Below, one piece after another: positions 43,990 to 63,430 of a DNA stretch of 64,000 nt. The translations under genes and the position numbers were made by a program. Source of the DNA: Martinezella tropici (GTDB lineage: Bacteria; Pseudomonadota; Alphaproteobacteria; Rhizobiales; Rhizobiaceae). The stretch's first letter is position 1, and each line of letters opens with the position of its first letter. The stretch is taken from contig NZ_QMKK01000054.1 in NCBI RefSeq assembly GCF_003287875.1, forward strand, positions 744,001 through 808,000. Direction: 5' to 3'. Under the pieces are notes generated by a model. The model did no database searches. It worked only from the letters and a program-made list of their open reading frames with translations, and was not told the origin of the DNA.

Positions 43990-45000
43990 ATGAAGACATT
44001 GATCTGCAACGAACCCGGCCGGCTCACTCTGATCGAGCGCGATGTTCCGACGCCCGACGAAGGCGAGGTGCTGGTGCGCATCAGACGCGTCGGCATTTGC
44101 GGCACGGATTTCCACATCTATCAGGGCAAGCATCCCTTTCTCGAATATCCGCGCGTCATGGGGCATGAGCTATCCGGCACGGTGGAGGATGCAAATGGTT
44201 CGAGCCGCCTCAAGAAGGGAGAAAATGTCTATATCGTTCCCTATCTTGCCTGCGGCAAATGCATTGCCTGCCGACGCGGCGTGACCAATGCCTGCCAAAA
44301 CATCGCCGTGCTTGGCGTACATCGTGATGGCGGCATGACCGAATTCCTCTGCGTTCCCGAGCGGAATGTCATCTCCGCCGGCAAGGCCTCGCTGGAGGAG
44401 GCTGCGATGATCGAGTTCCTGGCGATCGGCGCCCATGGCGTCAAGCGTGGCGGCATCACCGCCGCCGACCGAGTGCTCGTCGTCGGCTCAGGCCCGATCG
44501 GCATGTCCGCCATCATCTTCGCTAAGGCACGCGGCGCCGACGTCACCGTCATGGATGTCCGCGAAGACCGATTGGATTTCACCACCGCTGCGCTCGGCGC
44601 CGATCGGACACTCATTGCCAATGACGAAGCCGAAGCCCATGCAAAACGCCTCACCGACGGCGATTTCTTCGACGTCGTCATCGACGCAACCGGCAACACC
44701 AAGGCCATGCAACGCGGCTTCGGCTTCGTCGCCCACGGTGGCCGCTACGTCCTCGTCAGCGTCGTGCGCGACGACATAACCTTCTCCGACCCGGAATTCC
44801 ACAAACGCGAAACCACCCTCTTCGCCAGCCGCAATGCGCAACCGGACGATTTCGCCGAGGTCGTGAAGCAAATGGAAAACGGCCGGGTGCCAACGAAAGC
44901 ATTGAACACGCATCGGGGTTCGCTTGATGATGCGCCGACGTTGTTCAACGAGTGGCTGCGGCCTGAGATGGGAGTGATCAAGGCCATAATCGAGGTCTAA
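43990..45000 (+). CDS. Zinc-binding alcohol dehydrogenase, L-galactonate/L-gulonate 5-dehydrogenase-like
   Basis: A 336-residue MDR-family enzyme. Catalytic zinc: Cys in GICGTDFHI and His-Glu in MGHELSG; structural zinc cysteines in ACGKCIACRRGVTNAC. The Rossmann motif is VVGSGPIGMSA near residue 165. It resembles YjjN/LgoD, which oxidises L-galactonate to tagaturonate. That pairs well with the upstream tagaturonate reductase-like gene for a sugar-acid route through altronate. The ribosome site before ATG 43990 is weak. Confidence 0.85.
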   Translation: MKTLICNEPGRLTLIERDVPTPDEGEVLVRIRRVGICGTDFHIYQGKHPFLEYPRVMGHELSGTVEDANGSSRLKKGENVYIVPYLACGKCIACRRGVTNACQNIAVLGVHRDGGMTEFLCVPERNVISAGKASLEEAAMIEFLAIGAHGVKRGGITAADRVLVVGSGPIGMSAIIFAKARGADVTVMDVREDRLDFTTAALGADRTLIANDEAEAHAKRLTDGDFFDVVIDATGNTKAMQRGFGFVAHGGRYVLVSVVRDDITFSDPEFHKRETTLFASRNAQPDDFAEVVKQMENGRVPTKALNTHRGSLDDAPTLFNEWLRPEMGVIKAIIEV

Positions 45001-46549
45001 ATGCTGCTGCTTGGTGGGCTGGTTTTCACCGTTCCAGACGTAATGATGTTGACGCCAATGTTTCACGACAACAAAGCACTGCTTCGCTTCATGACATTTG
45101 GCTCGGTGGATGGTCCACAATCAACACTCACAGGACGCTTTTTACGATACCAAGAGCCTCTTTGACGATGAGCTTTTCAGCTTGAAGCAGGAAAAAGCAC
45201 TGAATAGGCTACGGCGGGCAGTGATATCGACTTTGCACCTGTGCGCGATGGCTTCGATGCGGAGCGCGAACATAACGGCAGAATCAAAAGAAACGCCATG
45301 GTGTAACGGGCTTTCGTTGTGGATCAGCTTGAAAACATCTCGATCGGCTATGATAGCTCGAAAAAGCCGCTTCTCTTTCTGATCCATTAGACCAATAAAC
45401 CAGATCTCTATTTTCGAGTTTCGAGGCTTTTCGGCCAAGTCACGTCTGGAAGTGTCTCGGTGGTTGATGCCGTTACAGTGGCAAAATGCTACTAACAGAC
45501 AACCGGAAGGCGGATTGTCACCTATGATGGGATCAAACCACAGCGGTCGAGCGACAGGCCGTCACGCTCGTATTGATTGACGAACTGGAGATAGCGCACG
45601 AAAATCTGGTGGCATTTTTGGCGGCAAAGCCCAAGTGTGCCGATCAGTCGCGCGAACTGATGCCTGAGGGCGAGTTCGGCGAGCTCTCCGTTGACATTCC
45701 GCTCGAAGAATCCGTGGGGTGCGCCTCAAAGGGTCTAGAAAAAAAGCGGCGGCGGGACAAATACCTAATTTCACCGTCATTACATCGTCATACGAGAGGC
45801 CAAAAAACCGTATACTCGCCTGCGTATTGTTGCCTATAATCCTGTGGATTGGCCCCGCGTCGAAAGCAATCTGATAAAGTGTTGAAATCTCTCAAGTGGC
45901 GGCGGTAGCCACCTTGCCAGCTTCTCGGCAACCCATACGCTTCGACAGTCTGCTGAAGTACGATTTGGCGAGCAGATACTCAAGGCATTGCCCCTGCAGT
46001 CACAAAAGAAAGTCCGACGACCAGAGTTTCTTGTCGGATGACCTTCGCTCGCCATTGTCGCTATCAAGCGACAAGGAAATGGACCAACCCAAAAGTAGTT
46101 CTTCCAGCCCGGTATTCAGTCGCTTTCATCCGTAGTTCGAAATGTCGAATCGGTGACAGCGGGTCCAGTGCGGGCCACGACAGGGCTGGGAACCGCGACG
46201 ATCCGAACGTTTGCTCGAACGCGACCACATGTTCCTAGAAATTAAATAGGTTGGAACTCTTCAGTGCAACTTCATGACTGCCCGCGAAAAAATGCTCGCT
46301 CGTCGCATCATGCTAACGCTTCTGCCAATCTTCGGCGTCTTAAGCATTTTCGCGCTTTTTACGCTGTCCATGATCGGGTAGGTGCAGATTTAAGAACATC
46401 TAATTGCGGCAAAGCGTCATTAAATCCGTCGGCTAAACGCCGTTTTGGGGATAGCAGGGTGACGCTTTGCAAAGCTTTGGATGCTAAGATGGTCTATTGC
46501 CTTGCAAGGCGGCCTCTGACGGCACCTAAAGGCAACGGCATGGCTCTCG
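45001..46549. other. 1.5-kb region with no recognisable gene
   Basis: This gap separates the sugar-acid genes from the siderophore cluster. Short ORFs at 45098-45382, 45142-45438 (minus), 45573-45839 and 45834-46067 (minus) lack ribosome sites and family resemblance. Composition is mixed and overlapping readings are broken by stops, which suits decayed mobile or phage DNA. GCAAAGCGTCA (46409-46419) and TGACGCTTTGC (46460-46470) form an 11-bp inverted repeat 40 bp apart. A possible 35-codon membrane peptide is listed separately. Confidence 0.5.
46274..46381 (+). CDS. Possible small single-span membrane protein (35 aa)
   Basis: The ORF starts MTAREKMLARRIM, then a hydrophobic stretch LTLLPIFGVLSIFALFTLSMI and a TAG stop at 46379-46381. 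The basic N-terminus with one membrane helix is typical of small stress or regulatory membrane peptides. No good ribosome site precedes ATG 46274, and the setting is a decayed region, so chance is possible. Confidence 0.3.
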   Translation: MTAREKMLARRIMLTLLPIFGVLSIFALFTLSMIG

Positions 46550-47794
46550 CTATACCTTCTCCAGCATCAACAGCTCGTCCAACCTCTGCCGCCTACGGAT
46601 CAATCGGTGGGCAGCGCCGTCTATAAGCACCTCGGGTGCATAGAGGCGGCTGTTGTAGTTCGATGACATTGTCGCCCCGTAAGCGCCGGCGCCGTGGAAT
46701 AGGAGATAGTCGCCGACATGGGCTTCCGGGAGATCGCGGGTCTCGACCGTGCCGGTGTCCGTCTGCGTGAAGACATCGCCGGATTCGCACAAGGGACCGG
46801 CAACGACGGTCGGGAAAATTTTGCCTGCAGCATTGCGAGGTGCCTTGCCCGGGATCACCGATATCTCGTGATAGCTGCCATACATGGCCGGTCGGGCAAG
46901 GTCGCTGAAGCCGGCATCAACAAGCACGAAGCGATTGCGGCCCATCATCTTCACCGCCCTCACTTCCGCCAGCAATACGCCGGAATCCGCGGTCAGGAAG
47001 CGCCCGGGCTCGATCTCCAGCCGGATCGGATGGCCGAAATGCGTTTCGATCTCTCGGCGGGCCGCATCCCAGAGCGAGAAATAGTGAGCGGGATCGATCT
47101 CCTCCTCACCCTCTTTGTAGGGCACGGAAAGACCACCGCCGGCCGAGATCGCCTCGATATCGACATCAAGCGCACGACAGAAGCCGACCATCGCACCGCA
47201 GACACGCTGCAGGTGCCCGTAATCGACGCCGGAGCCGATATGCATATGCAGGCCGACCAGTGTCAGGGAATATTGACGCGTCAGGGCCACGGCCTCGTGC
47301 AATTGCTCGAACCAGATGCCGTGCTTGCTGCTTTCGCCACCGGTATTGGTCTTCTTGCTATGGCCATGTCCGAAACCGGGATTGATGCGCAGCCAGACCC
47401 TATGGCCCGGTGAGCGCTCGCCGAGCTGATGCAGCATGTCGATGGAGCCGATATTCACTTCGACCTTGTCGGCAACGACGCGATCAAGGGTTGGCCTGTC
47501 GAAGACATCGGCGGTGAAGACCAGCTCCGCCGCGCCCGAGGCGCTGCCGGCAGCAAAGCCGGCCCGCATCGCCCGCTCGATCTCGCCGAGCGAGACGGCA
47601 TCGACATGCACACCCTCCCTGCGCATTTCCTTCAGGATATGAATGTTGGAACAGGCCTTTTGCGCAAAGCGAATGACGTCAAAAGCGGAGAGTTGCGCGA
47701 TGCGTCGGCGAATTGCGGCAGCGTCGTAGATCCAAAGCGGCGTTCCATATTCGGCGGCAAGCGCGCTTAACGTTTCATTGGAAGGGATGGTCAT
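46550..47794 (-). CDS. Type III PLP-dependent decarboxylase (diaminopimelate decarboxylase LysA-like)
   Basis: A 414-residue alanine-racemase-fold decarboxylase. The PLP lysine is in FAQKACSN, HIGSG and EPGRFLTADSG are phosphate and cofactor elements, and CESGDVF carries the second active-site Cys contributed to the dimer partner. The sequence is LysA-like; members also act on ornithine, lysine or carboxynorspermidine. The position at the end of a siderophore operon suggests supply of lysine or a diamine as building block; this is an inference. It lies 107 bp after the trans-sulfuration-like gene. Confidence 0.85.
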   Translation of the reverse strand: MTIPSNETLSALAAEYGTPLWIYDAAAIRRRIAQLSAFDVIRFAQKACSNIHILKEMRREGVHVDAVSLGEIERAMRAGFAAGSASGAAELVFTADVFDRPTLDRVVADKVEVNIGSIDMLHQLGERSPGHRVWLRINPGFGHGHSKKTNTGGESSKHGIWFEQLHEAVALTRQYSLTLVGLHMHIGSGVDYGHLQRVCGAMVGFCRALDVDIEAISAGGGLSVPYKEGEEEIDPAHYFSLWDAARREIETHFGHPIRLEIEPGRFLTADSGVLLAEVRAVKMMGRNRFVLVDAGFSDLARPAMYGSYHEISVIPGKAPRNAAGKIFPTVVAGPLCESGDVFTQTDTGTVETRDLPEAHVGDYLLFHGAGAYGATMSSNYNSRLYAPEVLIDGAAHRLIRRRQRLDELLMLEKV

Positions 47795-47901
47795 CTTGTC
47801 TCGATCGGGTCAGGGCGGGAATAGATCAACAATGAATAATAATATGGGCGGAGCGGCAGTGCCACTCCACCAGCCTTGCGATGTCAAGGTAAAGAGCCCG
47901 C

Positions 47902-49083
47902 CTAGCGTCTCGTTGCCAAAAGCGCCTGCTCGAGATCGGCAATGACGTCCTTTGCCGCGTGCAGCCCGACATTCAGGCGGATCGTGCGGTCGCTGACGCC
48001 GAAGCGCGCGAAAACATTGGTCTCCGGCGAAATGCTGAGCGCTGCCTTTGCCGGCACCACCAGGCTTTCCGGCCCACCCCAGCTGACGCCGATGCGGATA
48101 AGGCGTAGCGCGTCGACGAAATCGGCAACGTCGATACGCTCGGAAACCTCGAAGGAAAACAACGCCCCGAAACCACTGAAGGTGCGCTTTCCGGGATGAT
48201 CGCCGAGTGCCGGATGCATGACATTGGTGACGTCCCCCTGCGCCTGCAGCCAGGATGCCACCTCCAGACCGGCTTCGTGATGATGGCGCATGCGGAATGG
48301 CAGGGTCTCGAGATTGCGCAGGACAAGCCACGCTTCGAAAGGAGCGAGCTTCGCACCCGTATAGGGGTAAATTTCGCTGTTGATCCGGTCGATATGCACC
48401 TTGGAGCCTACGACGAGACCAGCCACGGTATCGCTCTGTCCGCCAAGATATTTCGAGGCGGCGTGGATGACGATATCGATGCCGACGGAGAGCGGCTTCT
48501 GGTAGAGCGGCGTTGCCCAGGAATTGTCGACCATGGTCACGACGCCATGACGGCGCGCCGCCTCCGCGATGGCGGTCAGATCCTGCAGCTCGAAAACCAT
48601 CGAGGTCGGGTTTTCAAGATAGGCAAGCTTGGCGCCCCGAAGCGCTGCGATCATCGCCTCGGTATCCGTGCCGTCGACATAGTCGACGACGACGCCGAAG
48701 CGCTTCAGGACCTTTTCGAAGAAGCGGAAGGCATCGCTATAAACGTGCCGTACGGTGACTATACGGTCGCCGGGTCCGACGAAAGCGAGAACCGCGGCAG
48801 CAATTGCACCCATGCCGCTCGAAAAGGCACGTGCCTCTTCCGCGCCTTCCATCTCGGCGATCTTGCGCTCCAGAAGCCGCACGGTCGGATTGTCGCCGCG
48901 CGAATAGATCGGCTTCTTCGAACGGCCGGCGAACACGTCCTCCAGCTCCTTATAGCTATCGAACAGAAAGAGCGACGTCTGGTAGATCGGCGGTACTGCC
49001 GCGTCGAACGGATCGTCGCGCGGCGGCATCAGCGCATCTGGAATGGCGTGTCTGTAGGCATCGAATCTCGGCGTCTCGTTCAT
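47902..49083 (-). CDS. Cys/Met metabolism PLP-dependent enzyme (cystathionine lyase/synthase-like)
   Basis: A 393-residue fold-type I PLP enzyme of the trans-sulfuration family. The Schiff-base lysine is in HAASKYLGGQSD near residue 206, PLP contacts in SSGMGAIAA and MVDNSWATPLYQ. Closest family members split cystathionine or make it; substrate residues are not diagnostic here. Some act in natural-product pathways to alter side chains. ATG 49083 follows AGAGGAATGCC. It is third in the minus-strand siderophore operon. Confidence 0.87.
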   Translation of the reverse strand: MNETPRFDAYRHAIPDALMPPRDDPFDAAVPPIYQTSLFLFDSYKELEDVFAGRSKKPIYSRGDNPTVRLLERKIAEMEGAEEARAFSSGMGAIAAAVLAFVGPGDRIVTVRHVYSDAFRFFEKVLKRFGVVVDYVDGTDTEAMIAALRGAKLAYLENPTSMVFELQDLTAIAEAARRHGVVTMVDNSWATPLYQKPLSVGIDIVIHAASKYLGGQSDTVAGLVVGSKVHIDRINSEIYPYTGAKLAPFEAWLVLRNLETLPFRMRHHHEAGLEVASWLQAQGDVTNVMHPALGDHPGKRTFSGFGALFSFEVSERIDVADFVDALRLIRIGVSWGGPESLVVPAKAALSISPETNVFARFGVSDRTIRLNVGLHAAKDVIADLEQALLATRR

Positions 49084-49098
49084 GGCATTCCTCTAGGG

Positions 49099-50466
49099 TC
49101 AGGGTTGAAGTGTCGATTGGCCGGCGAGGCTTGGTACATCCACCGGCAGAATGGCGAGCCATTCCCGCCGGGCGACGAAAAGGCCAAGAACGGCGGCGAG
49201 GATGGCGGCGGCTGCAGGTGCTGCGGAAACACCGTCAAAACCCATCCAAGGCGGCAGCAGAAGAAGAAGCGGGATTAGCAGATAGCCTTGCGGCGCGAGC
49301 CCGACCAGGGCGGACAAGCCGGCCCTGCCCCGCGATTGCAGCATCACCAGCAGTACGGATTGAAAGGCTGCCAGCGGGAAGACCGGAAAGAGTGCTCGCA
49401 GCCACGGCACTGCCTCTTCGACGACCTGCAAACTATCGGTGAACAGGTGTGCGATCGGTTCCGCCGCCAGGAACAGCAAGATGGAATAGAGCAATGCGAC
49501 CGGTATCGTCACAGCCAGCATGAACCGGATGACAGCTTTCAGGCGCTCGGCATCGCCCGCGCCAAAGGCATGACTGACGACACCCTGGGCGCCCAGGCAG
49601 AAGCCGAACAACGGAAGCTGCCCCAGAGTCATCAGGCGGATGGCGATCGCAGTCGCGGCCACACCCGTGTCGCCGCCTTGAACCGCGGCCTCCCGCATCA
49701 GGACGAGAAAACCAAAGCCGGTCATGATGCTGGCGGCGGCGGCGGGAATGCCGATCCTCGCGATCGGCTGCAACAGCTGCCAACGTATCAGGCCGGCGGT
49801 GATGCCAACCGTTCCCCACTTGCGGGCAAAGTAGACAAGATAGCAGGCGAGTGCAGCAATGGACGAAACGACGGTCGCCAGTGCCGCGCCGGAGGCACCA
49901 AGCTTGAAGAGGAAAATGAAAATTGGATCCAGGGCGGCGTTCAGGGCGAAGCTGGCAATCAGCACGATCATCGAGAAGCGTGAATTGCCTTCGGCAATCG
50001 CGATGAAATCGCAGACTGCCTGCGAAAGCCCGAGCGTTACGCCGAAGGCGAGCAGCCGCCCATAGTCCAGCCCCGGGGCAAGAAGATTGTCGCTTGGGCC
50101 GAGTGCACCGACGAAATCGGGCAGCCCGAGATAAATCGGTATGGAGAGGGCTATGCCGAGCGGGATCGTTGCCGCGAGCGCGGTTGTGGCAACCGAGGAA
50201 GCGGCTTTCAGATCGCCTTCGCCGAGATGGCGCGCCAAAAGCGTGGCAAGTCCGATGCCAAGCCCCTGCCCAGCCGCCGCGACAAGCAGGAACAGCGGCA
50301 TGACCAGGCTGATGCCAGCCAGCACATCCGGTCCCAGCGCGCCGAGAAAGATCGCATTGATCGCATGATGGCCGGCGCTGGCGGCCAATCCCGCCACCGC
50401 CGGCAAAGCGACCGCCAGAACGAGCCGCATGATGCGCGGATCGTTCATATCGACGGCTGCCTTCAT
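49099..50466 (-). CDS. MATE-family efflux transporter (probable siderophore exporter)
   Basis: A 455-residue inner-membrane protein with 12 predicted hydrophobic helices in two MatE halves (ASAGHHAINAIFLGALGPDVLAG at helix 1-2; GFCLGAQGVVSHAFGAGDAERLKA near residue 290). MATE proteins use H+ or Na+ gradients to extrude organic compounds. Its operon with an acyltransferase suggests it exports the finished siderophore. The start overlaps the acyltransferase stop by ATGA, showing coupled translation. Confidence 0.88.
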   Translation of the reverse strand: MKAAVDMNDPRIMRLVLAVALPAVAGLAASAGHHAINAIFLGALGPDVLAGISLVMPLFLLVAAAGQGLGIGLATLLARHLGEGDLKAASSVATTALAATIPLGIALSIPIYLGLPDFVGALGPSDNLLAPGLDYGRLLAFGVTLGLSQAVCDFIAIAEGNSRFSMIVLIASFALNAALDPIFIFLFKLGASGAALATVVSSIAALACYLVYFARKWGTVGITAGLIRWQLLQPIARIGIPAAAASIMTGFGFLVLMREAAVQGGDTGVAATAIAIRLMTLGQLPLFGFCLGAQGVVSHAFGAGDAERLKAVIRFMLAVTIPVALLYSILLFLAAEPIAHLFTDSLQVVEEAVPWLRALFPVFPLAAFQSVLLVMLQSRGRAGLSALVGLAPQGYLLIPLLLLLPPWMGFDGVSAAPAAAAILAAVLGLFVARREWLAILPVDVPSLAGQSTLQP

Positions 50467-51620
50467 CGCGCTGCATCTCGCGGCAGCGAACCCAGAACAG
50501 GCCGGCCATCCTCGCTGGAAAGGCCGGTGAGATCGGGCGACAGCAACCGATCCATAAAGAAGCGTTCGCGCAAAAGCATGACCAGAAGCGCCTTCTTGTG
50601 CGGGAACTGGATGTGCTTGACCTTGGCAAAACCCGAACGGTCGAGATTGCGGATCTGCTGAGCATGATGATGGATCGGCTCGCCGACGATGCGCCGGGTG
50701 CGCGGATCGGCGAGAAACATGTAATGCATCAGCGATGGCAGCCAGGCGCTGACGAAGGCCTTTCCGCGGAAATCATCCTCGCCGATGGCCACATGCCAGC
50801 CGCGGTCATAGCCGTCGGCGTCGTAATGCGGTCCGATCCGGTCTTCCTTCGCCCAATAGAGTTCGAAGTAACCGAAGGGCACACCGCCAAACGTTCCGAT
50901 CAGCGGCAGAGTGCGCGGATCGGCAAGGCGGCCCGCGATGAAATCCCGGTGATAGGAAAGATCACCACTATCTTCCCATATCGCGGCGACCCTCGGGTCG
51001 TTCATCCAGCGATGGAAATGCGGAAGATCGGCCTCGACATCGGCGACATGGAAGCCAAGCTGCGTGTTCAGCCAGGGAATGAAGCGGTTATATACGGAAC
51101 CGACGGGCTTCGGCGGCCTTTGCGGATGAAGGACATTGTTTGTCAGGACCGGTACTTCCGGATAGGCAGCGGCTCCGCTTCCAATCCAGGGTCTTGCCTG
51201 CTGAAAGAAAGATTCGGGGCGCACGATCAAGCGATCGCCGCGACGCTCGATCGCGCCCGCTTCTGTGAGGCGCTTCGCAAGGCCGCCGTCCGCAAGCTCG
51301 ATCTCGAAGCAAACCAGGTGCGGATTGCATATGAGAATAGCTTCCAAGACGGCGTTGATGATATCCTCACCGGAAGCAGGCGAAGCGGCTGAAGATATGG
51401 TGTCAAAGACCAACAGATTGGCGGCGGGCCTCGAGAGAAAGCCCGAGGCGACCTCAAGGCCATCTTGCTCGACGCGGAAACTGCCGGATAGCTGCCCCGG
51501 CGACACGATGAGGGGCTGAACACAAGCGCGTGCATGGCTTGCGAACCCCGCTGCCGGCAGGCGCAAATCAAATGATCGCTCCGCCGCCTTTTCGCCCCTC
51601 AATGCCACGGAAGCATCCAT
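50463..51620 (-). CDS. IucB/VbsA-type siderophore N-acyltransferase (GNAT)
   Basis: About 385 residues. The C-terminal 180 residues form the acyltransferase domain found in IucB, RhbD and VbsA: LPHFHRWMNDPRVAAIWEDSG, FGYFELYWAKEDRIG, GWHVAIGEDDFRGKAF and RIVGEPIHHHAQQI. It would acylate an N-hydroxylated ornithine or lysine to create a hydroxamate. The first 200 residues are a less conserved extension. ATG 51620 follows GGAGAGAAAT. It heads the minus-strand siderophore operon. Confidence 0.88.
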   Translation of the reverse strand: MDASVALRGEKAAERSFDLRLPAAGFASHARACVQPLIVSPGQLSGSFRVEQDGLEVASGFLSRPAANLLVFDTISSAASPASGEDIINAVLEAILICNPHLVCFEIELADGGLAKRLTEAGAIERRGDRLIVRPESFFQQARPWIGSGAAAYPEVPVLTNNVLHPQRPPKPVGSVYNRFIPWLNTQLGFHVADVEADLPHFHRWMNDPRVAAIWEDSGDLSYHRDFIAGRLADPRTLPLIGTFGGVPFGYFELYWAKEDRIGPHYDADGYDRGWHVAIGEDDFRGKAFVSAWLPSLMHYMFLADPRTRRIVGEPIHHHAQQIRNLDRSGFAKVKHIQFPHKKALLVMLLRERFFMDRLLSPDLTGLSSEDGRPVLGSLPRDAAR

Positions 51621-51689
51621 ATTTCTCTCCATATTTCGAAAACCGCACACTCTCTAAAGCGGCAAGCCGTACAGGCGTTCATTCCGCAG

Positions 51690-51704
51690 TGACGAACGGC
51701 GTCA
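51690..51704. promoter_or_regulatory. Candidate RirA iron-responsive (IRO) box
   Basis: TGACGAACGGCGTCA fits TGA-N9-TCA, the published RirA core. It is 70 bp upstream of the acyltransferase start, in the promoter region of the siderophore operons. The pattern is short, so chance is possible. Confidence 0.35.
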
Positions 51705-51714
51705 GACAGAATTC

Positions 51715-51737
51715 AAAATATTTTCCGAAAATATTTT
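51715..51737. promoter_or_regulatory. Perfect AT-rich palindrome between divergent siderophore operons
   Basis: Arms AAAATATTTTC and GAAAATATTTT flank a single C, giving a 23-bp perfect dyad 95 bp upstream of the acyltransferase start. It looks like a high-affinity operator or strong hairpin. It does not match the Irr ICE or Fur consensus well. Confidence 0.6.
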
Positions 51738-51853
51738 TTGAGATTCCTCTGAATTTCGCCATCGGCCGTTCGTCATGCAGCTACAACAAGGTAATTTCCG
51801 AAACATCGGAACTTACAGACACAAGAAAGTCAGCATAAGCGGCAAGTTAAACT

Positions 51854-51875
51854 CAATGTCTATTTCAAGACATTG
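51854..51875. promoter_or_regulatory. Inverted repeat upstream of the NRPS gene
   Basis: CAATGTCT and AGACATTG form an 8-bp perfect inverted repeat with a 6-bp spacer, 70 bp upstream of the chosen NRPS start. It is a candidate activator or ECF-linked regulator site. Confidence 0.55.
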
Positions 51876-51946
51876 TTATGCATACGCTATTGTATTCAGA
51901 ATGGCCGGATATGTATTCAGAAATATTGACGGAGAGCGGCGAAGAA

Positions 51947-54900
51947 ATGACCATTCATAATCGGAATGCCAAGGCAATGAATGACTCCGATTACCTCGCA
52001 AAATGCTCGCTGTCACCGACGCAATCGCGCATCTGGCTTCTGTCCGAGACGGGTAACGAAGCCGTCTATGGCCGGCAAATACTCGCCGTCACCTTCCCTC
52101 CAATCTCTCTCGTTTTGGCGCATCAGGCTCTTGCAATGCTTTCGCGCCAGCATCCCCTCATCACATCGGAATTCGAGGCTCGGCCGGGCGGCACCGTTCA
52201 GCAGATCCTGAGGAACGATCGCACGGTCGATATCATCGAGACGGAACTGACTACCGGTGGCGATCTGAACGCGGCGCTGACCGCAGTCGCGACCACCGAA
52301 CAGGCCCGCCCGATCGATCTGACGAAAGGCAATCCGGCGCGCTTCATTCTCGCCGTGCAGAACGGCCAGGCGGTTGGTGCCGTATTTTCGCTGCATGCCA
52401 TCCTTGCCGATGCGGTGACGCTGGATTTGCTGGCAACGGATTTCCTTTGCTATATCGACAGCGGCCGGCCGGCCGGCATCGCCGAAACCACATTGGCCGA
52501 CGCAGCATCGTGGATGACCGGCAATGGCGCACCGCGCAATCCGCCACCGGAGCTGATCGACTTCTGGTTCCAGCGGCTGACAGGGCAGGAGAATATCGCA
52601 TCGCTGCCGCCACAGACGTCGACGGGGAAGAATATAGTCGACGAGGCGTGGTTCGAGCATCTGCTTGAAGTGCCTGTGACGGGGCGGCTTATCCGGACGC
52701 CGGCCACCGCAGAAATCTCCCGAGATCTTCTCGCCGCGCTCGCGATCGCCCTTCGCCGGCATTCGGGCTACGGCACGCAAAGGATCGGCCTCGTCACTCG
52801 GCCGGAAAGTCAGACGGTCGCAGCACGCAGTGAGGATGTGCTGATCCTCACGACAGACCTCAACGGCGCCATGACGCTTCACGAGGTCCGTAAGGCATTT
52901 GCAGAGGAAATCGAGACCGCCGCCCAACAGGCCCTGCCCTTCGAAGCGCTTGCCGATGCCCTGCTGCGCCGGGATGAGCTGTTCGACACGACCGGCCTCG
53001 TCAAGACGCTTCTCGATGTGCGACCTGCCCTGCGCTTCATGAAAGCAACGCCCGATGGCATGGCAAGCCACAGCGTCATGGAGCCCCGGGCGCGCCGCGA
53101 CGCCGAACTGGTCATCACCGTTTCCCCGGCACACAGTGGAACGTTGCGCATCGGCTTCGGTTTCGATCCGCAAAAGCATGACCGAGAGCAAATCCTCCGC
53201 TTTGCCGACGATCTCGCCATCGCGCTAGTGCGGCTGAACACCAGTCCGGACGAGCAGATCAAGCATGTTCCGTTCGTTTCGCCTGAAGAACTGGACAAGC
53301 TCTCGGCGCCCTATCCCGACGCGCCGGAACCGGACGATGGCACGCCGATCCATGAGGTCATCTCCGCGCAGGCGAAACGACGACCGAATGCCTTCGCCGT
53401 GGCCCAGGGCGAAAAATCGGTAACGCATGGTGAGCTCGAGGCAGCCTCCAATCGGCTGGCCCACCGCCTGATGGCGCTGGGTATAGGCCCAGAGAAGCGC
53501 GTCGCCATCGCACTCGAGAAGTCCATCGACGCCATCATCGCCATTCTGGCCGTTCTGAAGTCGGGCGGGGCATTCACACCGGTCGAGCCCGATCACCCGG
53601 AAGCGCGCAATCGTCATATTCTGACGGCGCCGGGGCTCTCGCTGGTCATTTCGCGCGCTCGCCATATCGCAAACCTTCCAAGCGACATTGCGACCCCCTT
53701 CCTCAATCTCGACGCCGTCGACCTTTCCTCGGAAGGCAGCGAGGCGCCTGCTACCGTCATTGCGCCACAGCAGCTTGCCTACGTGATCTACACCTCGGGC
53801 TCGACAGGTGTGCCGAAGGGCGTCGTGGTCGAGCATGGCCCGCTGGCGCATCATTGCAAGGCGACCCTGCGCATCTACGAGATGAGCGAGGAGTCCTGCG
53901 AATATCCCGTTCTTCCCTTTACCTCCGACGGCGGTCATGAGCGCTGGATGGTGCCGCTGATGGCGGGCGGCGGGGTGGTGCTGACACCAGACAAGCTTGC
54001 CACGCCCGAAGATGCCTTCGCGATGATGAAGCGCCATGGCGTCAACAATGCCAGCCTGCCCACGAGCTATGTACGCGGCCTTGCCGAATATGCCGGCGAG
54101 AACAGCGAGATACCCCGACTGCGGCTCTATTCCTTCGGCGGTGAAGCCTTGTCGCAGGCGGTGTTCGATATGATCACCGAGAACCTGAAGGCACAGCTGC
54201 TGATCAACGGCTATGGTCCGACCGAAACGATCATGACGCCGATGATCTGGAAGATCCCTGCTGGAACCCGCTTCGAGGGGACTGTCGCACCGATCGGGCG
54301 CGGCGTCGGCCATCGTCGCATCTATGTGCTCGATGCCGATCTTGCGCCCGTTCCGGTCGGCGTGATCGGTGAGATCTATATCGGCGGCAGCGGCCTGGCA
54401 CGCGGCTATCTCGGTCAGCCGGAGCTGACGGCGGAACGCTTCATTCCGGATCCTTTCACACCGGGCGGACGACTGTACAAATCCGGCGACCTCGGCCGCT
54501 GGCGGGAAGACGGCATCGTCGAATTCGCCGGCCGCGTCGATCATCAGATCAAATTGCGGGGCTTCCGCATCGAGCCGGGCGAGATCGAAGCCGTGCTGCG
54601 CTCTGACCAGCGTGTCGCAGAGGCCGTCATCCTGCTGCACAATGAAGGCGGTCGCAGCTCGCTTGTCGCCTATGTGGTGCCGCGCGAAGGCGAAAGCTTG
54701 AGCGTGACGGAGCTGCGACGTACCGCCATGACGGCCCTGCCCGATTATATGGTGCCGCAAACGATCATGCTGATCGACAAGCTGCCGATGGGACCGAACA
54801 GCAAGCTGGACCGCGCCGCCCTGCCGACACCGCGCATCGAACGCGAGATGGCGCTACCTGCCAATGACAAGGAAAAGGCGATCCTCGACACCTGGAAGGA

Positions 54901-55945
54901 AATCCTCGACATCGGCGACATCGGGGTTACGGAGAATTTCTTCGATATTGGCGGCCAATCGCTGGCAGCCGTGCGCATCGTCTCGCGCCTGAAGATGCGC
55001 CATCCCGAATGGCCGCTGACGATCGCCGATATGTTCAATCATCCCACCGTGCGCGATCTTGCGCTCGCGATCGATGGCAATCGCGACGAGGCCGGCGTCG
55101 ACGTGGTCTATCTTCGGCGAAATGGTGACCGGCCGGTGCTTTATTGCTTCCCGGGGCTTCTCGTCAGCACGCGCGAATATATGCGCCTCGTCGACTACCT
55201 CGGCCCGGAACAACCCGCAACGGGGTTCATCTGCTACTCGCTGACCGAGACCAAGACGCTGAGCACCCGCGTCGAAGATATCACGGCGCGCTACGCCGAG
55301 GCTGTGCGCAGGAAAGCCAAAGGTCGCCCCTGCGCCTTTCTCGGCTGGTCGTGGGGCGGACTGCTCGCCTATGAGGCCGCGCGTCAGCTCGGCAATGACA
55401 TCGACCTGCGCATGATCGGCATGGTCGATGTCTGCGACATGGACGAGGAATTCACCGTCGGCATCATGCCGCGCTTCGAAGACGGTATTCGCGATCGCAC
55501 CCATGCTGCCGTGCAGAGCTGGCTTGCCACCACACCGATGCGCGAGGACTGGAAGAGGCTTTTCGCCGCCATGAACGAGGAGGTTTACGAACAGTTCCTC
55601 CACCATGTCGTCAAGCATAATGTCAAACTGCCGACGGACGGTCCCGATATCGGTTCCGAGGAGCATACGTTCTGGATCCTCATCGACAATGCGATGATCT
55701 TCCGAAACTATCGCCTTCAGCAATCCGATTTCCGCATCCACGCGTTTGCGGCTGAGGATTCCCTTACACGCGCCCTCAATGTCATCGACTGGCGGCGCTA
55801 TTCGCAAAACGCCACGGCCTCGGAGATCGTCACCGGCACAAACCACCTGACGATCATCGGCAAGACGCCCTTTCACCAGCGATTTGCGCGACGGCTCGAT
55901 CACGCTTTTGCACCCGCGCCCCTTCCTGCGGGCATCATCAAGTAA
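51947..55945 (+). CDS. Single-module non-ribosomal peptide synthetase (C-A-T-TE)
   Basis: About 1332 residues. The condensation domain covers roughly 1-440, with the His motif as LHAILAD instead of HHxxxDG. The adenylation domain (about 450-950) shows YTSGSTGVPKG, INGYGPTET, YKSGDLGRW and NSKLDRA; its A4 segment reads FTSDGGHERW. The carrier domain has FDIGGQSLAA (phosphopantetheine Ser). The C-terminal thioesterase has GWSWGG. No epimerase domain. It should activate an N-hydroxy-N-acyl amino acid and oligomerise or release it, as VbsS does in vicibactin. Starts at 51878, 51911, 51947 and 51977 are all possible; 51947 follows GGAGAGCGGCGAAGAA. Confidence 0.9.
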   Translation: MTIHNRNAKAMNDSDYLAKCSLSPTQSRIWLLSETGNEAVYGRQILAVTFPPISLVLAHQALAMLSRQHPLITSEFEARPGGTVQQILRNDRTVDIIETELTTGGDLNAALTAVATTEQARPIDLTKGNPARFILAVQNGQAVGAVFSLHAILADAVTLDLLATDFLCYIDSGRPAGIAETTLADAASWMTGNGAPRNPPPELIDFWFQRLTGQENIASLPPQTSTGKNIVDEAWFEHLLEVPVTGRLIRTPATAEISRDLLAALAIALRRHSGYGTQRIGLVTRPESQTVAARSEDVLILTTDLNGAMTLHEVRKAFAEEIETAAQQALPFEALADALLRRDELFDTTGLVKTLLDVRPALRFMKATPDGMASHSVMEPRARRDAELVITVSPAHSGTLRIGFGFDPQKHDREQILRFADDLAIALVRLNTSPDEQIKHVPFVSPEELDKLSAPYPDAPEPDDGTPIHEVISAQAKRRPNAFAVAQGEKSVTHGELEAASNRLAHRLMALGIGPEKRVAIALEKSIDAIIAILAVLKSGGAFTPVEPDHPEARNRHILTAPGLSLVISRARHIANLPSDIATPFLNLDAVDLSSEGSEAPATVIAPQQLAYVIYTSGSTGVPKGVVVEHGPLAHHCKATLRIYEMSEESCEYPVLPFTSDGGHERWMVPLMAGGGVVLTPDKLATPEDAFAMMKRHGVNNASLPTSYVRGLAEYAGENSEIPRLRLYSFGGEALSQAVFDMITENLKAQLLINGYGPTETIMTPMIWKIPAGTRFEGTVAPIGRGVGHRRIYVLDADLAPVPVGVIGEIYIGGSGLARGYLGQPELTAERFIPDPFTPGGRLYKSGDLGRWREDGIVEFAGRVDHQIKLRGFRIEPGEIEAVLRSDQRVAEAVILLHNEGGRSSLVAYVVPREGESLSVTELRRTAMTALPDYMVPQTIMLIDKLPMGPNSKLDRAALPTPRIEREMALPANDKEKAILDTWKEILDIGDIGVTENFFDIGGQSLAAVRIVSRLKMRHPEWPLTIADMFNHPTVRDLALAIDGNRDEAGVDVVYLRRNGDRPVLYCFPGLLVSTREYMRLVDYLGPEQPATGFICYSLTETKTLSTRVEDITARYAEAVRRKAKGRPCAFLGWSWGGLLAYEAARQLGNDIDLRMIGMVDVCDMDEEFTVGIMPRFEDGIRDRTHAAVQSWLATTPMREDWKRLFAAMNEEVYEQFLHHVVKHNVKLPTDGPDIGSEEHTFWILIDNAMIFRNYRLQQSDFRIHAFAAEDSLTRALNVIDWRRYSQNATASEIVTGTNHLTIIGKTPFHQRFARRLDHAFAPAPLPAGIIK

Positions 55946-55977
55946 TCCCTCTCTCGATATCGTTCTGGAGCTGCATC

Positions 55978-57292
55978 ATGACATCGCACGTGCTCGACCT
56001 CGCCGGGGCCGGAATTGGTCCGTTCAACCTCAGCCTCGCCGCCCAGCTCGACTCCGTCCCGGAACTCGCGGTCCGCTTCTTCGAGCGGCGCCCATCCTTC
56101 GCTTGGCATCCGGGGATGATGCTGCCGGGCGCCGAGATGCAGACGTCCATCCTCAAGGATCTGGTGACCGCGACCAATCCGACAAGCCCCTGGAGCTTTC
56201 TCTCCTATCTTGTTGCTCATAAACGCTTTTATCAGTTTCTTAATGCAGAATACGAAGCCGTTCCGCGCAAGGAATTCGCCGATTATCTTGGATGGGTGGC
56301 ACGCGGACTGACCTCGCTTCGGCGCAAGCGTGCGCGAAGTCCATGCCAATGATGGCTTCTTTTCCATCACGACCGACGATGACGCCATCGGCGCCCGCAA
56401 TCTTTCCGTCGGCGTCGGCAAGGTCCCGGCTCGTCCAGCCTGGGCCGAGCAGCTATCGAGATCCATGACCTTCCACAGCAGCGAAGCGACGCAGCGCCTC
56501 GGCGACGTGAAGGCTCCGCGTGTCGCCGTTATTGGCGGCGGCCAGAGTGGGGCCGAGATCCTCGATGCCCTTCTGGATCTGAATGCCGTTTCGACGTTTC
56601 ACTGGATCAGCCGCCGGCCGAATTTCGAGCCGCTCGATGCCACGCCCTTTACCAATGAACTGTTCACGCCTGGCTATATGGAACGCTTCCATGGGCTGCC
56701 CGAGGAGCTACGCCTCACTCATACGCGCCGGCAGGTGCTGGCGAGCGACGGCGTTTCCGCCTCCACATTGAAAAAGCTCTATCGCCGCCTCTATGAGCGC
56801 AAGCTCGATACCGCAGGCGGCGCGGATCATGGCATCTCTCTGCGTCCCTTCCGAAACGTCGTCGCGGCCGAGCAGGATGGCCCCGAAATACGGCTGACCA
56901 TGCGCAACGGCTTCGACGACAGTATCGAAACGCTTGTTGTCGATATGATCGTCCTTGCGACCGGCTATCGCTTCGTGCTTCCGGAATTTCTGCACTCGCT
57001 CGAAAACCGCATCGAACTGAGCTCCATCGGCGAGCCGGTGCTGGAAAGCGACTTCTCGCTGGCATGGGACGGCCCGCGTGAAAACCGCATTTTCGTTCTC
57101 AATGCCGGCCGCCATAGCCACGGCATCGCGGAACCGCAGCTCAGCCTGGCTGCGTGGCGCAGCGCCGTCATCGCCAATACCCTTCTCGGCCGTCAGCATT
57201 TCAATATCGGCCAGCTCGATCCTATCGTTCAGTGGGAAACGAAGGGGCATTCGTCGGAAATCGCCTCTCATATGGGACAGGCGGCAGAATAA
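55978..57292 (+). pseudogene. L-ornithine/L-lysine N-monooxygenase, frameshifted
   Basis: The gene is read in two frames: 55978-56352 (124 codons) and a frame whose open part runs 56312-57292. Part one has GAGIGPFNLSLAAQL (FAD), SFAWHPGMMLPGAEMQ and FADYLGWVARGLTSL; part two has RFGASVREVHAND, VIGGGQSGAEILDALL (NADPH) and DMIVLATGY. Together they equal a normal IucD/VbsO-like enzyme of about 435 residues. The break lies near 56317-56321 at CTTCGGC, consistent with loss of one copy of a tandem CTTCG (a 5-bp deletion) or another indel. If real, N-hydroxylation would fail. It starts with GGAG seven bases before ATG, 33 bp after the NRPS. Confidence 0.85.
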
Positions 57293-57293
57293 A

Positions 57294-58013
57294 GTGCCTC
57301 CCCTCCGAGAGAGAGAAAGCGTCGCGCAGGTCGAGCTTCACAGCCTGCATCTGCGCGACCGAGTTGATGTCCCGGACTGGATATTAAGTGAACAGGAAAG
57401 ACACCGAGCGGCGGCATTCCGATCGGCCGAAGCGCGGCGTCTTTTTGTTGCCGGACGGTTCCTTTGTCGCCGCATCCTCGGCGATCTGCTCGGCTGCGCG
57501 CCACAGGCGCTCTCCATTGCGATTACACAGTCGGGCAGGCCCTACCTGTCCGATTTTTCCGATATCGACTTCAATATTTCGCATGTGCGGGACCGAGTGG
57601 CTCTCGCGATCTGTCGCGGCGGCCTGATCGGCATCGATATCGAACGCGTCGATGCATTTTCGGAAGAGGAGGCCGGCGAAATCATGCCGATGATCCTTTC
57701 CGAATACGAGTTCGATCAAGTTCGTCAGTTGGACGGGCAATATCGCCGCGATGCTCTTCTCGCCCGCTGGGTTCAGAAGGAGGCTGCCCTGAAATGCCTT
57801 GGCCGGGGCTTCCTCGCCGACCCGCGATGCGTGACGCTCTCACCCGATTATGCAACTTTTGGCAGCAAAAGCCAGCTATCAAGCGAGCCGATTTTCATCA
57901 ATTCCGGCCGGGTCGGCGACGGAGAAATTGGGGATTTCCAATGGGCAATCGCGACATCGAGGCTCGTGACAGAGCCGCAATGGCGGCATCACATAAACGG
58001 GATTTCCTTATAG
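57294..58013 (+). CDS. 4'-phosphopantetheinyl transferase (Sfp type)
   Basis: About 239 residues. PPTase motifs are NISHVRDRVALAI, GIDIERVD (Mg-binding Asp/Glu) and WVQKEAALKCLGRG. It loads coenzyme A-derived arms on the NRPS carrier domain. GTG 57294 begins one base after the monooxygenase stop, so initiation probably depends on translation arriving from upstream; the frameshift there could lower its expression. The in-frame reading from 57078 is antisense-like shadow of the monooxygenase. Confidence 0.88.
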   Translation: MPPLRERESVAQVELHSLHLRDRVDVPDWILSEQERHRAAAFRSAEARRLFVAGRFLCRRILGDLLGCAPQALSIAITQSGRPYLSDFSDIDFNISHVRDRVALAICRGGLIGIDIERVDAFSEEEAGEIMPMILSEYEFDQVRQLDGQYRRDALLARWVQKEAALKCLGRGFLADPRCVTLSPDYATFGSKSQLSSEPIFINSGRVGDGEIGDFQWAIATSRLVTEPQWRHHINGISL

Positions 58014-58092
58014 ATCGCATTGGAAAGTTGAAATAGAATCAGGCGCATACGCCATGATTTAGGAGATGCTGCACTTTTCCACTCCGCTATCT

Positions 58093-58107
58093 TGACTATC
58101 ATTGTCA
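58093..58107. promoter_or_regulatory. RirA-type iron-responsive operator upstream of the ECF sigma gene
   Basis: TGACTATCATTGTCA matches TGA-N9-TCA exactly and lies 72 bp upstream of the rpoI-like start. It fits iron repression by RirA, as known for rpoI in R. leguminosarum. Confidence 0.55.
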
Positions 58108-58178
58108 TGTTTTATAGGTTCCCTCTCAAAAAGAGGGGCACACAGAAATGCAACTTTGGATTTCAGCGAGAGCCCGAC

Positions 58179-58769
58179 ATGATTGCCAACCATTCGCAGT
58201 CGACTTCCAATGAGCAACTCCAAACAGCACTTCACGCCTACCCGAAACTTCTCTCCGTCGCGCGCAGGATCACGGGCTCCATGACCACGGCCGAGGATGT
58301 CGTGCAGGAGGTTCTCCTGCAGCTGGTCTCAAAGCCGCTGGGAGAAGACATAGCGGCGCCTGCGTCCTATGTGATGCGCATGGTGCGCAATCTGGCCACC
58401 GATTATATGCGGCGGCAGCAATATGAACGCGGCCTGTTCGTCGAGGAAGAGGTCGGGGGCAATACCTCGGCCTATGGAAGCCCTGAAGAACATCTCCATG
58501 AGGCCCAAGCCTACAAGGCCTTTCGCTGCACGGTCGAAGCCATGCCTGCCAGAACCCGCAAGTTCTACGAGGAGCACTATTTCGACGACATTCCCCAGAA
58601 CATCATCGCCAAGGAGGCAGGCGTATCCTGCGCCCTCGTCTGCGGCCTTCTGCGGGAGGCGCATTCGCGTTGCCTTGCCGCCATCTCGCTTGAAGCCGAT
58701 CATGATTGTGCCGCCACCAGCAACCACCGCCGCCACCGATCCGCACGGGTTCGGGAAATGCGCGCCTGA
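58179..58769 (+). CDS. rpoI: ECF sigma factor, RpoI-like
   Basis: A 196-residue sigma-70 family ECF. Region 2 has AYPKLLSVARRITGSMTTAEDVVQEVLLQ and YVMRMVRNLATDYMRRQQ; region 4 has ARTRKFYEEHYFDDIPQNIIAKEAGVSCALVCGLLREA. It resembles RpoI/PvdS iron-starvation sigma factors that transcribe siderophore genes. No anti-sigma gene is adjacent, as for RpoI. ATG 58179 is chosen over in-frame starts near 58092 because these overlap the IRO box. Confidence 0.85.
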   Translation: MIANHSQSTSNEQLQTALHAYPKLLSVARRITGSMTTAEDVVQEVLLQLVSKPLGEDIAAPASYVMRMVRNLATDYMRRQQYERGLFVEEEVGGNTSAYGSPEEHLHEAQAYKAFRCTVEAMPARTRKFYEEHYFDDIPQNIIAKEAGVSCALVCGLLREAHSRCLAAISLEADHDCAATSNHRRHRSARVREMRA

Positions 58770-58827
58770 TGGGAATACACCGCCATCTTCTGCCAACAAC
58801 GCTCAACCGACAGGTAAGGAAAAGTAG

Positions 58828-59301
58828 ATGCAGGAAGCTATCGAGATAACCGAATCCAAAGGTGCCATCTGTCGTGACATCATGTCGGAGCTTACGGAGT
58901 GGTTCACCGACCCCAATGTCGTCGAAGCCTGCGCAGGAGCTGTGGAAACCCTGCCGATGTTCGGCTGCGTCGAGACAGACACCGTCTCCGGTTTCGTTTC
59001 GTTGCGTGCGCATCCGCCGGCTGCCATGGAGATCCTGGTGATTGCGACGCGACGCCAATACCATCGCAGCGGCGTCGGCAAGCGATTGCTGGCGGCAGCC
59101 GAGACATTCGCGCGATCTTCCGATTGCAAGCTCTTGACGGTGAAGACGCTTGCGCCGCGCGGCAGAGACGAACCGCAATATGAAAAGACACGCGCCTTTT
59201 ATGACAGGAACGGCTTCATCCGCGCCGAAATATTCCCGACGCTCTGGCGCGAGAGCGATCCATGTCTTTTCTTCGTCAAACCATTGATTCCAATCAATTA
59301 A
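58828..59301 (+). CDS. GNAT-family N-acetyltransferase
   Basis: A 157-residue GNAT. The acetyl-CoA loop is RRQYHRSGVGKRLL (Q/RxxGxG/A) near residue 75, and the C-terminal NGFIRAE is typical. AAGGAAAAGTAG precedes the ATG, 58 bp after rpoI. A role in tailoring the siderophore or in self-modification is possible because of position, but the domain alone does not show it. Confidence 0.85.
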   Translation: MQEAIEITESKGAICRDIMSELTEWFTDPNVVEACAGAVETLPMFGCVETDTVSGFVSLRAHPPAAMEILVIATRRQYHRSGVGKRLLAAAETFARSSDCKLLTVKTLAPRGRDEPQYEKTRAFYDRNGFIRAEIFPTLWRESDPCLFFVKPLIPIN

Positions 59302-59362
59302 CTAAACCGCCCCAGCGGCAGTCGACATGTCAGCGAGCCGCCGGGCTTCAGCAGGAACGATA

Positions 59363-60175
59363 ATGAAAGACGAAACTAGCGCCCGAAACGATCAGCGTCA
59401 TGCAACGGTTTTCAAGACGGAAGGCCTGCGTTTCGAGGTCGATGGCAAAACCATTCTTCACCCGCTCGATATCAGCTTCAATGCCGGCGAGATTTCCGGT
59501 CTGATCGGTCACAACGGCTCGGGCAAATCCACGCTGATCAAGTTGCTGGCCCGGCAGATCCAGCCGACGGGCGGCCGCATTCTATTCGACGGCGTAGCCG
59601 CCGGCTCCTACGACATGCGTGCTTTCGCGCGCGCCGTCGCCTATCTGCCGCAGGACACCACATCGGCTGCCGGCATGAAGGTCGAGGAGCTTGTCGCCTG
59701 CGGGCGCTATCCCTGGCACGGAGCGCTCGGCCGTTTCAGCGATCGCGACCGGGAAAAGGTGGAGACGGCAATGAAGCTGACGCATGTCGATACGCTTGCG
59801 GGGCGGATGGTGGATACACTCTCCGGCGGCGAGCGCCAGCGCGTCTGGATCGCGATGCTGGTCGCCCAGGATAGCCGCTGCCTGCTGCTGGACGAGCCGA
59901 CCTCGGCGCTCGACATCGCCCATCAGATGGAAATTCTCGGGCTTGTGCGGGAGCTTTGCCGGACGAAGGAATTGAGCGTTATTCTCGTCCTGCACGACAT
60001 CAATGTCGCGGCGCATTTCTGCGATCATCTTCATGCGTTGAAGCAAGGACGCCTGATTGCCGCGGGGCCTTCGCCAAGCCTCATGAAAGCCGAGACACTG
60101 CATACGATCTATGGCACCAATATGGGCGTCACGGCCCACCCCGTGCATGGAACGCCGCTCGCCTATGTCATCTGA
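59363..60175 (+). CDS. fhuC: Iron-siderophore ABC transporter ATP-binding protein (FhuC-like)
   Basis: A 270-residue ATPase. Walker A GHNGSGKSTLIK, LPQDT Q-loop, signature LSGGERQRVW, Walker B LLLDEPTSALD, and H-loop VLHDINVA. Its family powers uptake of ferric hydroxamates. ATG 59363 follows AGGAACG. The end overlaps fhuD by 11 nt. Confidence 0.92.
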   Translation: MKDETSARNDQRHATVFKTEGLRFEVDGKTILHPLDISFNAGEISGLIGHNGSGKSTLIKLLARQIQPTGGRILFDGVAAGSYDMRAFARAVAYLPQDTTSAAGMKVEELVACGRYPWHGALGRFSDRDREKVETAMKLTHVDTLAGRMVDTLSGGERQRVWIAMLVAQDSRCLLLDEPTSALDIAHQMEILGLVRELCRTKELSVILVLHDINVAAHFCDHLHALKQGRLIAAGPSPSLMKAETLHTIYGTNMGVTAHPVHGTPLAYVI

Positions 60176-63055: not shown

Positions 63056-63063
63056 TCGCTTCA
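63039..63063 (+). terminator. Intrinsic terminator overlapping the fhuB stop codon
   Basis: TGAAGCGATCA-AAA-TGATCGCTTCA gives an 11-bp stem with a 3-nt loop, then TTCTTTAAA. The stop TGA (63053-63055) lies in the right arm, so transcription ends right at the end of the gene. Confidence 0.8.
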
Positions 63064-63430
63064 TTCTTTAAATTCGATCCAACTCACATGTAAGCTTTGT
63101 AAGATCTCAACGATGGTATGACCTTCTGTAGAAGCTATGCCATTGTCCAACGCAACCGATTTGCAAGTTGAAAGCTGGCTGCAATCCCGCTTAGAGAGGC
63201 GCCGGAAAACTCCAACCACGTTGGCGCAGAAAGCCGACCTTGGCTGAGTTATCAATCTGTTCCGCCTCATCCTTGCCCAGTCCAGAGCCGGTGGAGCACG
63301 GCGAAAAAGGACAGTGGATGCTCAAAATCTTGGCCGCTTCTATAGAATGCAGTTAGCAGTAAGCGACAAATCTCGCCGAATTGGTAGGTACATCAGGCGC
63401 CGCGAAAAAACGCGCGCCTATTACGCAACG
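63064..63430. other. Intergenic region between fhuB and receptor
   Basis: 367 bp between convergent genes. An ORF at 63061-63270 (minus) lacks support. Nothing identifiable beyond the terminator at its left edge. Confidence 0.4.

Follow-up and report, generated by a model that had tools for sequence, protein, structure and literature searches.

The window analysed here comprises 64,000 nucleotides of Martinezella tropici (contig NZ_QMKK01000054.1, positions 744,001 to 808,000 of the forward strand) and contains a siderophore locus in which two genes for pyridoxal 5'-phosphate (PLP) enzymes lie side by side: a counterpart of vbsL and a lysA gene of the Escherichia coli type. With somewhat better than even confidence, we read this locus as a vicibactin-type hydroxamate cluster of a separate branch in which the LysA protein supplies L-lysine, a lysine homologue of vicibactin being the simplest corollary. 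The branch, here called type A as opposed to the VbsS type of the described vbs clusters, comprises the Rhizobium tropici group, R. rhizogenes, A. vitis, some Sinorhizobium/Ensifer and Shinella. Relative to the vbs set, lysA is the sole truly additional gene of the two. Gene identities, vbs orthology, conservation, selection and the relatives of lysA are read directly from the comparisons below.

Both open reading frames (ORFs) were confirmed on the minus strand, lysA at 46550-47794 and the vbsL-like gene at 47902-49083. They form the distal end of an operon that also encodes a GNAT acyltransferase (50463-51650) and a MATE exporter (49099-50466), and these exact coordinates bear out the co-orientation reported in a preliminary description of this DNA. 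The acyltransferase and exporter genes overlap by 4 nucleotides, 15 nucleotides separate the exporter gene from vbsL, and 107 lie between vbsL and lysA. The operon is divergent from the gene of a single-module nonribosomal peptide synthetase (NRPS) with condensation, adenylation, thiolation and thioesterase domains, with 227 nucleotides between them. On the NRPS side follow, in order, genes for a monooxygenase, a phosphopantetheinyl transferase (PPTase), an extracytoplasmic function (ECF) sigma factor, a small GNAT protein and Fhu-type import.

The 414-residue lysA product contains the Pfam domains Orn_Arg_deC_N and Orn_DAP_Arg_deC (E 5.7e-48 and 2.6e-21), both of fold-III PLP decarboxylases. 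It passes the lysA equivalog TIGR01048 (381.9 versus 297.9 bits) and matches the E. coli LysA structure 1knw with 573 bits over residues 7-412 (406 residues), compared with 99 bits for the D-ornithine/D-lysine decarboxylase 6n2h and 38 bits for a lysine/ornithine decarboxylase. All 12 checked positions are identical to E. coli LysA, and they are unchanged in 30 of 30 cluster copies. The PLP lysine and the motifs EPGR, RP..Y, CESGD and GAY have established roles in LysA, and each is kept in the cluster protein. The housekeeping LysA of the same genome is only 34% identical to it. Judged by sequence, the cluster LysA would thus be a genuine E. coli-type meso-diaminopimelate (meso-DAP) decarboxylase in this organism. 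The comparison with LysA and with ornithine/lysine decarboxylases proposed in the preliminary description, taken together with the tree described below, sides with a true LysA, and the lysine supply suggested there is the best reading of such an enzyme.

It is very unlikely that this LysA-like enzyme has been re-purposed to decarboxylate a D-intermediate, or D-lysine or D-ornithine from the VbsL-like epimerase, into an amine-ended or diamine unit. LysA-family enzymes do act on a D-centre, the family includes the D-ornithine/D-lysine decarboxylase 6n2h, and an epimerase is encoded next door. However, true LysA is far closer, its 12 checked positions are all kept, and an adenylation domain cannot load a unit that lacks a carboxylate. 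The score against the D-ornithine/D-lysine decarboxylase (DokD) model NF052544 is 130.4 bits, below the cut-off of 700. The orthologous hydroxylase likewise carries residues of amino-acid rather than diamine enzymes. In the available text of PMC8009421, four amino-acid-binding residues of SidA are described, including Lys, Asn, Ser and Asn 323, and the cadaverine hydroxylase SsDesB is described as being without them; our reading of the alignment places Lys, Asn and Ser, three of the four, at corresponding positions in the type-A hydroxylase and in VbsO. The diamine supply raised earlier is therefore disfavoured. A cadaverine route was rejected on the type of LysA and on these hydroxylase residues.

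The ancestry of the gene was traced in a tree of 86 LysA rows, from which 17 duplicate or near-duplicate loci, including R. gallicum L027, had been dropped beforehand. The 30 cluster LysAs form one clade (support of 92 in the Shimodaira-Hasegawa-like approximate likelihood-ratio test, SH-aLRT), and six non-cluster rhizobial LysAs are its neighbours (97 for all 36). Most of the surrounding LysAs belong to beta- and gammaproteobacteria; some are from planctomycetes and one is from Nitrospina. One further rhizobial LysA from outside the cluster, the seventh (locus L035, genome G032), sits apart from the rhizobial group on a long branch. Of the six neighbours, three were checked (L034, L071 and L073), and a divergent LysR-family gene stands alongside in all three; a divergent lysR-lysA pair is also the arrangement in E. 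coli. One of the rhizobia with such a LysR-paired gene, G014, also carries a housekeeping lysA. Unlike E. coli lysA, the cluster gene has no LysR-type neighbour, lies in a siderophore operon and coexists with a housekeeping lysA. The simplest history would be that a lysR-lysA pair of the beta/gamma type entered rhizobia and that the siderophore operon then captured lysA without its regulator.

The second PLP enzyme (393 residues) belongs to the Pfam family Cys_Met_Meta_PP (E 7.7e-104) and to the PRK05968 subfamily of NCBIfam (635 bits, cut-off 508). A search of plasmid records returned many Rhizobium matches at 56-58% identity, one of which, at 58%, is the annotated vbsL of R. etli CIAT 652, next to rpoI. 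The annotated order in that strain is vbsP, vbsO, vbsS, vbsG, vbsA, vbsD, vbsL, rpoI, vbsC, fhuD, fhuB. Identities to the R. etli proteins, together with the shared A-D-L order, define the operon in the window as vbsA-vbsD-vbsL plus lysA. In a tree of 44 rows, with 14 duplicate or near-duplicate loci dropped beforehand, 33 type-A enzymes and seven VbsLs form separate clades (SH-aLRT 100 each). The two clades join with a support of 88, at a node that carries a long-branch warning, apart from two PRK05968 paralogues, a Rhizobium and a Phyllobacterium one. The PLP-lysine motif ASKYLGG and other motifs are common to the window enzyme and VbsL, and among solved structures the closest is an L-Ala/L-Glu racemase (9iz5). 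By sequence, tree and operon position the enzyme is a VbsL orthologue, for which orthology predicts an epimerase acting on an acylated hydroxy-amino acid. VbsL is called an acyl-hydroxyornithine epimerase in the available text of PMC12971057, which cites Heemstra 2009. The antiSMASH vicibactin rule given there, a VbsL-type epimerase next to an NRPS with Condensation and AMP-binding domains, describes the arrangement in the window, as judged from gene identities.

The preliminary description had labelled this protein trans-sulfuration-like, and a true trans-sulfuration or gamma-lyase enzyme with no epimerase activity is now highly improbable. Its Pfam family and the presence of methionine gamma-lyases among its best structure matches point that way; orthology to VbsL and a racemase as the top structure match count against it. 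Among the best 25 of 54 NCBIfam families, its scores also fall below the cut-offs of the named trans-sulfuration models (met_gam_lyase 319 versus 550, O_suc_HS_sulf 296 versus 510, cysta_beta_ly_B 270 versus 366). Because it corresponds to VbsL, whose gene comes third in the vbsA-vbsD-vbsL series of R. etli CIAT 652, the enzyme is a member of the vicibactin set as described. The earlier statement that both enzymes fall outside that set therefore holds for LysA only. A second PRK05968-like enzyme, 52% identical, is encoded in the same genome at contig positions 682972-684060, 108 kb from the cluster, and has matches of 51-53% in many other genomes of the genus among the matches listed. A 61% identical VbsL-like enzyme occurs on a plasmid of Phyllobacterium sp. 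T1293 with a GntR regulator and sugar/amino-acid transporters, outside a siderophore cluster.

The distribution of lysA was surveyed in 394 Rhizobiaceae genomes (LysA at E <= 1e-100, NRPS at E <= 1e-200; relatedness not removed). The NRPS occurs in 16 of them, eight of type A (67-100% identity) and eight of the VbsS type (46-47%). An E. coli-type LysA is present in six genomes, all within the eight of type A and none within the eight of the VbsS type. Every cluster that was mapped on either flank of the NRPS gene contains a VbsL-like gene. Among 67 named loci, a VbsL-like gene lies directly upstream of lysA in 26, with MATE detected in 25 of these; the loci were fetched by a LysA query and are hence uninformative on the frequency of clusters that lack the gene, for which the 394 genomes are less biased. 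The operon block also occurs in S. meliloti Ak57 and R. tropici CIAT 899. Moreover, LysA distances track NRPS distances across 28 loci (r 0.957; none of 500 permutations as high). These data support the co-inheritance of lysA with the cluster, and its conserved position supports the earlier placement of both enzymes in a siderophore operon. The three type-A clusters without lysA known to us from this sample and from the set of relatives are scattered rather than grouped in the VbsL tree, which suggests that lysA is ancestral to type A and was lost at least twice, probably three times. No MATE match was detected in the stretches of two of these clusters (G004 and G247) or in that of the VbsS-type G324; in G004 and G247, where MATE and lysA matches are both lacking, the acyltransferase gene adjoins vbsL.

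Comparison with the vbs cluster of R. leguminosarum and R. etli places these observations in context. The window contains counterparts of vbsA, vbsD, vbsL, vbsS, vbsO and vbsC, of the PPTase, of the ECF sigma factor and of fhu import, and it shares the divergence of the A-D-L operon from the NRPS gene (vbsS-vbsO) and the adenylation code. In contrast, type A has the extra E. coli-type lysA after vbsL, its NRPS is 45% identical, and it has no counterpart of VbsG, the MbtH protein of R. etli. No MbtH match was found in the whole genome of the window or in 11 of 11 further type-A genomes (12 in total), whereas MbtH is present in 11 of 11 VbsS-type genomes. This absence implies that the type-A NRPS either works without MbtH or is inactive, and it seems to be MbtH-independent.

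Related clusters have been noted before. The hydroxamate siderophore cluster of R. tropici CIAT 899, some genes of which are reported as similar to vbs (PMC3557214), is the same cluster (69-96% identity protein by protein). Rhizobium sp. 11515TR, with vicibactin among its predicted clusters (PMC6256449), carries the same lysA and vbsL types (91.5% and 95.0%). The available text of these two papers contains no discussion that we found of lysA, of MbtH absence or of the epimerase. A plasmid survey also reports vicibactin-like clusters (PMC10434180). Across openly licensed papers, as far as their text was available, neither a lysA gene in such a cluster nor a lysine vicibactin was found.

SbnH, PvsE, AcsE and FslC are precedents for a LysA-like decarboxylase in a siderophore cluster; they are associated with NRPS-independent synthetases and other substrates. 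The present case resembles them in having a member of the family within a siderophore cluster and differs in that a plain LysA stands beside an NRPS.

Vicibactin is a cyclic trimer of N2-acetyl-N5-hydroxy-D-ornithine and 3-hydroxybutyrate. In the pathway that we propose for type A, LysA would convert meso-DAP to L-lysine for the siderophore pathway, and the monooxygenase would hydroxylate the side-chain amine of the amino acid, so that N6-hydroxylysine would be the building block. The IucB/VbsA-like GNAT protein would acylate the hydroxylated amine, the VbsL-like enzyme would invert the resulting acyl hydroxy-amino acid at its alpha carbon, and the NRPS would activate, oligomerise and release the acylated unit. 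Export would proceed through the MATE protein and import through the TonB/Fhu proteins. The product, a lysine homologue of vicibactin, would have a desferri neutral mass of about 816.41, three CH2 above vicibactin by our own arithmetic.

That lysine is the amino-acid building block is given a slight edge. It is favoured by the captured DAP decarboxylase, by the hydroxylase family and by five differing positions in the adenylation pocket. In the available text of PMC7347517, VbsO is the only ornithine-accepting enzyme close to the lysine hydroxylases. The five positions, among 43 inspected, differ from VbsS in every row (11 type-A and six VbsS rows) and read, from VbsS to type A, 213 N to A/S, 233 S to T, 243 N to V, 279 I to L and 282 T to S. 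A broader scenario falls just short of even confidence: an MbtH-free vicibactin-type line would have switched from ornithine to lysine, and its operon would have captured a foreign-type meso-DAP decarboxylase, wiring precursor supply to iron control.

Several observations weigh against the supply and use of lysine by the cluster. Across 46 of 46 rows (39 distinct strains, seven repeats), type-A NRPSs and VbsS have one and the same nine-residue adenylation code, DGESSGGMT, which favours ornithine as the common substrate. As the code equals that of VbsS, a substrate prediction from it was discarded as not discriminating. VbsO, orthologous to the type-A hydroxylase, accepts only L-ornithine and gives no product with lysine, according to the available text of PMC7347517, and Asn 323 of SidA is unmatched, in our alignment reading, in both the type-A hydroxylase and VbsO. 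Three type-A clusters lack lysA, two in the 394-genome sample (G247 and G260) and one in the set of relatives (G004), with an unchanged adenylation code, and lysA is therefore dispensable. Conversely, two genomes of the relatives' set (G014 and G032) carry an E. coli-type LysA with no cluster nearby. The housekeeping lysA could supply lysine. Openly licensed papers, as far as their text was available, gave no structure for a siderophore of the R. tropici group.

In the present strain the vbsO counterpart, a member of the L-lysine/L-ornithine N-monooxygenase family, is itself split by a frameshift in the assembly, with a first part at 55978-56352 and a second at 56330-57292 (both plus strand), and the window thus holds no intact VbsO hydroxylase gene. 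The frameshift may be either a real mutation or an assembly error. A real mutation would imply that siderophore production from the cluster is probably absent in this strain. In each of the 40 other loci examined, one uninterrupted ORF encodes the counterpart; these loci represent 38 distinct strains, as two were fetched twice (L114/L065 and L118/L051), and L047 is the genome of the reference copy L029.

Several of these points suit a different explanation, which we consider possible though clearly less probable: the product would be ornithine-based vicibactin or a near copy of it, and lysA would be a passenger, maintained for lysine need in iron starvation or through neutral co-inheritance. 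The code shared with VbsS, the clusters without lysA, the ornithine specificity of VbsO and a hairpin between vbsL and lysA all speak for it. Against it stand the purifying selection on cluster lysA (ratio of nonsynonymous to synonymous substitution, dN/dS, 0.05-0.13 in five comparisons with relatives), its retention at the same place in several genera, and the restriction of E. coli-type LysA (E <= 1e-100) in the 394-genome sample to type-A genomes. A DAP decarboxylase is, moreover, of no use to ornithine synthesis.

The hairpin bears on whether lysA is expressed with the operon. A GC-rich, conserved stem-loop with a weak terminator-like tail lies in the vbsL-lysA gap (47847-47871, minus strand) and is a candidate attenuator or processing site. 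All 29 loci with such a gap show a stem of nine or more pairs (one mismatch allowed); there is no gap in S. meliloti Ak57, where lysA directly adjoins the vbsL-like gene. In an alignment of 22 rows, 93.9% of cells are paired, compared with 41-55% when the stem is slid, and two-sided changes occur at two pairs only. None of 500 shuffles reached the paired cells or the covariation score, and nine reached the cells with two-sided changes. The number of pairs with two-sided changes (two) was reached by 145 of 500 shuffles, and 499 reached the count of further pair types. The rest of the genome holds two occurrences of the pattern, both with three mismatches and none closer, about as many as in the backward control. 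Given the weak T-tail, partial termination, processing or protection of the mRNA are all possible. The element may uncouple lysA from the operon, a further point against the proposed reading.

Iron control of lysA and its transcription with the operon are inferred. An Rfam scan of window positions 45000-64000 and of A. vitis L066 (9000-10500) gave no match at gathering thresholds, so no Rfam-known riboswitch precedes lysA. The divergent promoter region between the acyltransferase and NRPS genes (51651-51877) includes one RirA-type TGA-N9-TCA motif at 51690-51704. Such motifs occur in five of 22 type-A divergent regions, the window included, at differing places, and in five of six VbsS-type regions, which were cut longer (about 800-920 nucleotides, coding sequence included); the motif was not used as evidence of iron control. 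Consensus promoter-like matches numbered one (2.0 by shuffling) and terminator-like matches three (5.5 by shuffling), neither significant alone. The same region contains an AT-rich partial palindrome at 51710-51739 (AATTCAAAATATT and following), a 12-mer of which is common to 15 of the 28 divergent regions examined.

The remaining genes complete the resemblance to vbs. On the minus strand, the MATE exporter is the vbsD counterpart (39% to R. etli vbsD). The Acetyltransf_8 protein, a predicted hydroxylamine acyltransferase, is the vbsA counterpart (395 residues versus 345 in R. etli; 63% identity), the match corresponding to its C-terminal part from residue 148. On the plus strand, the vbsS counterpart (51878-55945; 45% to the R. 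etli NRPS) and the split monooxygenase gene are followed by the PPTase gene (57078-58013, with a true start that is probably more internal; 33-38% to the PPTase of VbsS-type clusters, ACPS domain in the L029 orthologue) and the ECF-type sigma factor gene (58092-58769; 27-29% to the vbsL-adjacent sigma gene of VbsS-type clusters, Sigma70_r2 in the L029 orthologue). Both run in the direction of the NRPS and monooxygenase genes; the R. etli arrangement differs, with vbsP convergent to vbsO and rpoI next to vbsL. Next come the vbsC counterpart, a small GNAT acetyltransferase (58828-59301; 58% to R. etli vbsC), and a FecE-like ATPase (59327-60175) assigned to ferric-siderophore import by sequence motifs and position, for which no gene is listed in the R. 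etli stretch. An FhuD/FecB-like binding protein (60111-61073; 60% to R. etli fhuD) and an FhuB permease (60944-63055; 59% to R. etli fhuB) close the series. A TonB-dependent receptor gene (63431-65656), convergent with the import genes, crosses the right edge of the window, and beyond it lie a putative esterase gene and then cellulose genes (BcsN, cellulose synthase).

With the trans-sulfuration label corrected to a VbsL-type epimerase, lysA stands isolated as the extra gene of the operon. The VbsS line with MbtH and type A without it form a natural pair for studying MbtH dependence. If the lysine reading is true, a rhizobial and agrobacterial branch, at least one member of which has been predicted to make vicibactin (11515TR; PMC6256449, in its available text), makes a siderophore other than vicibactin, and the difference in mass can be tested. 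The locus would then clearly exemplify the capture of a gene of primary metabolism by a siderophore operon, to provide its own building block.

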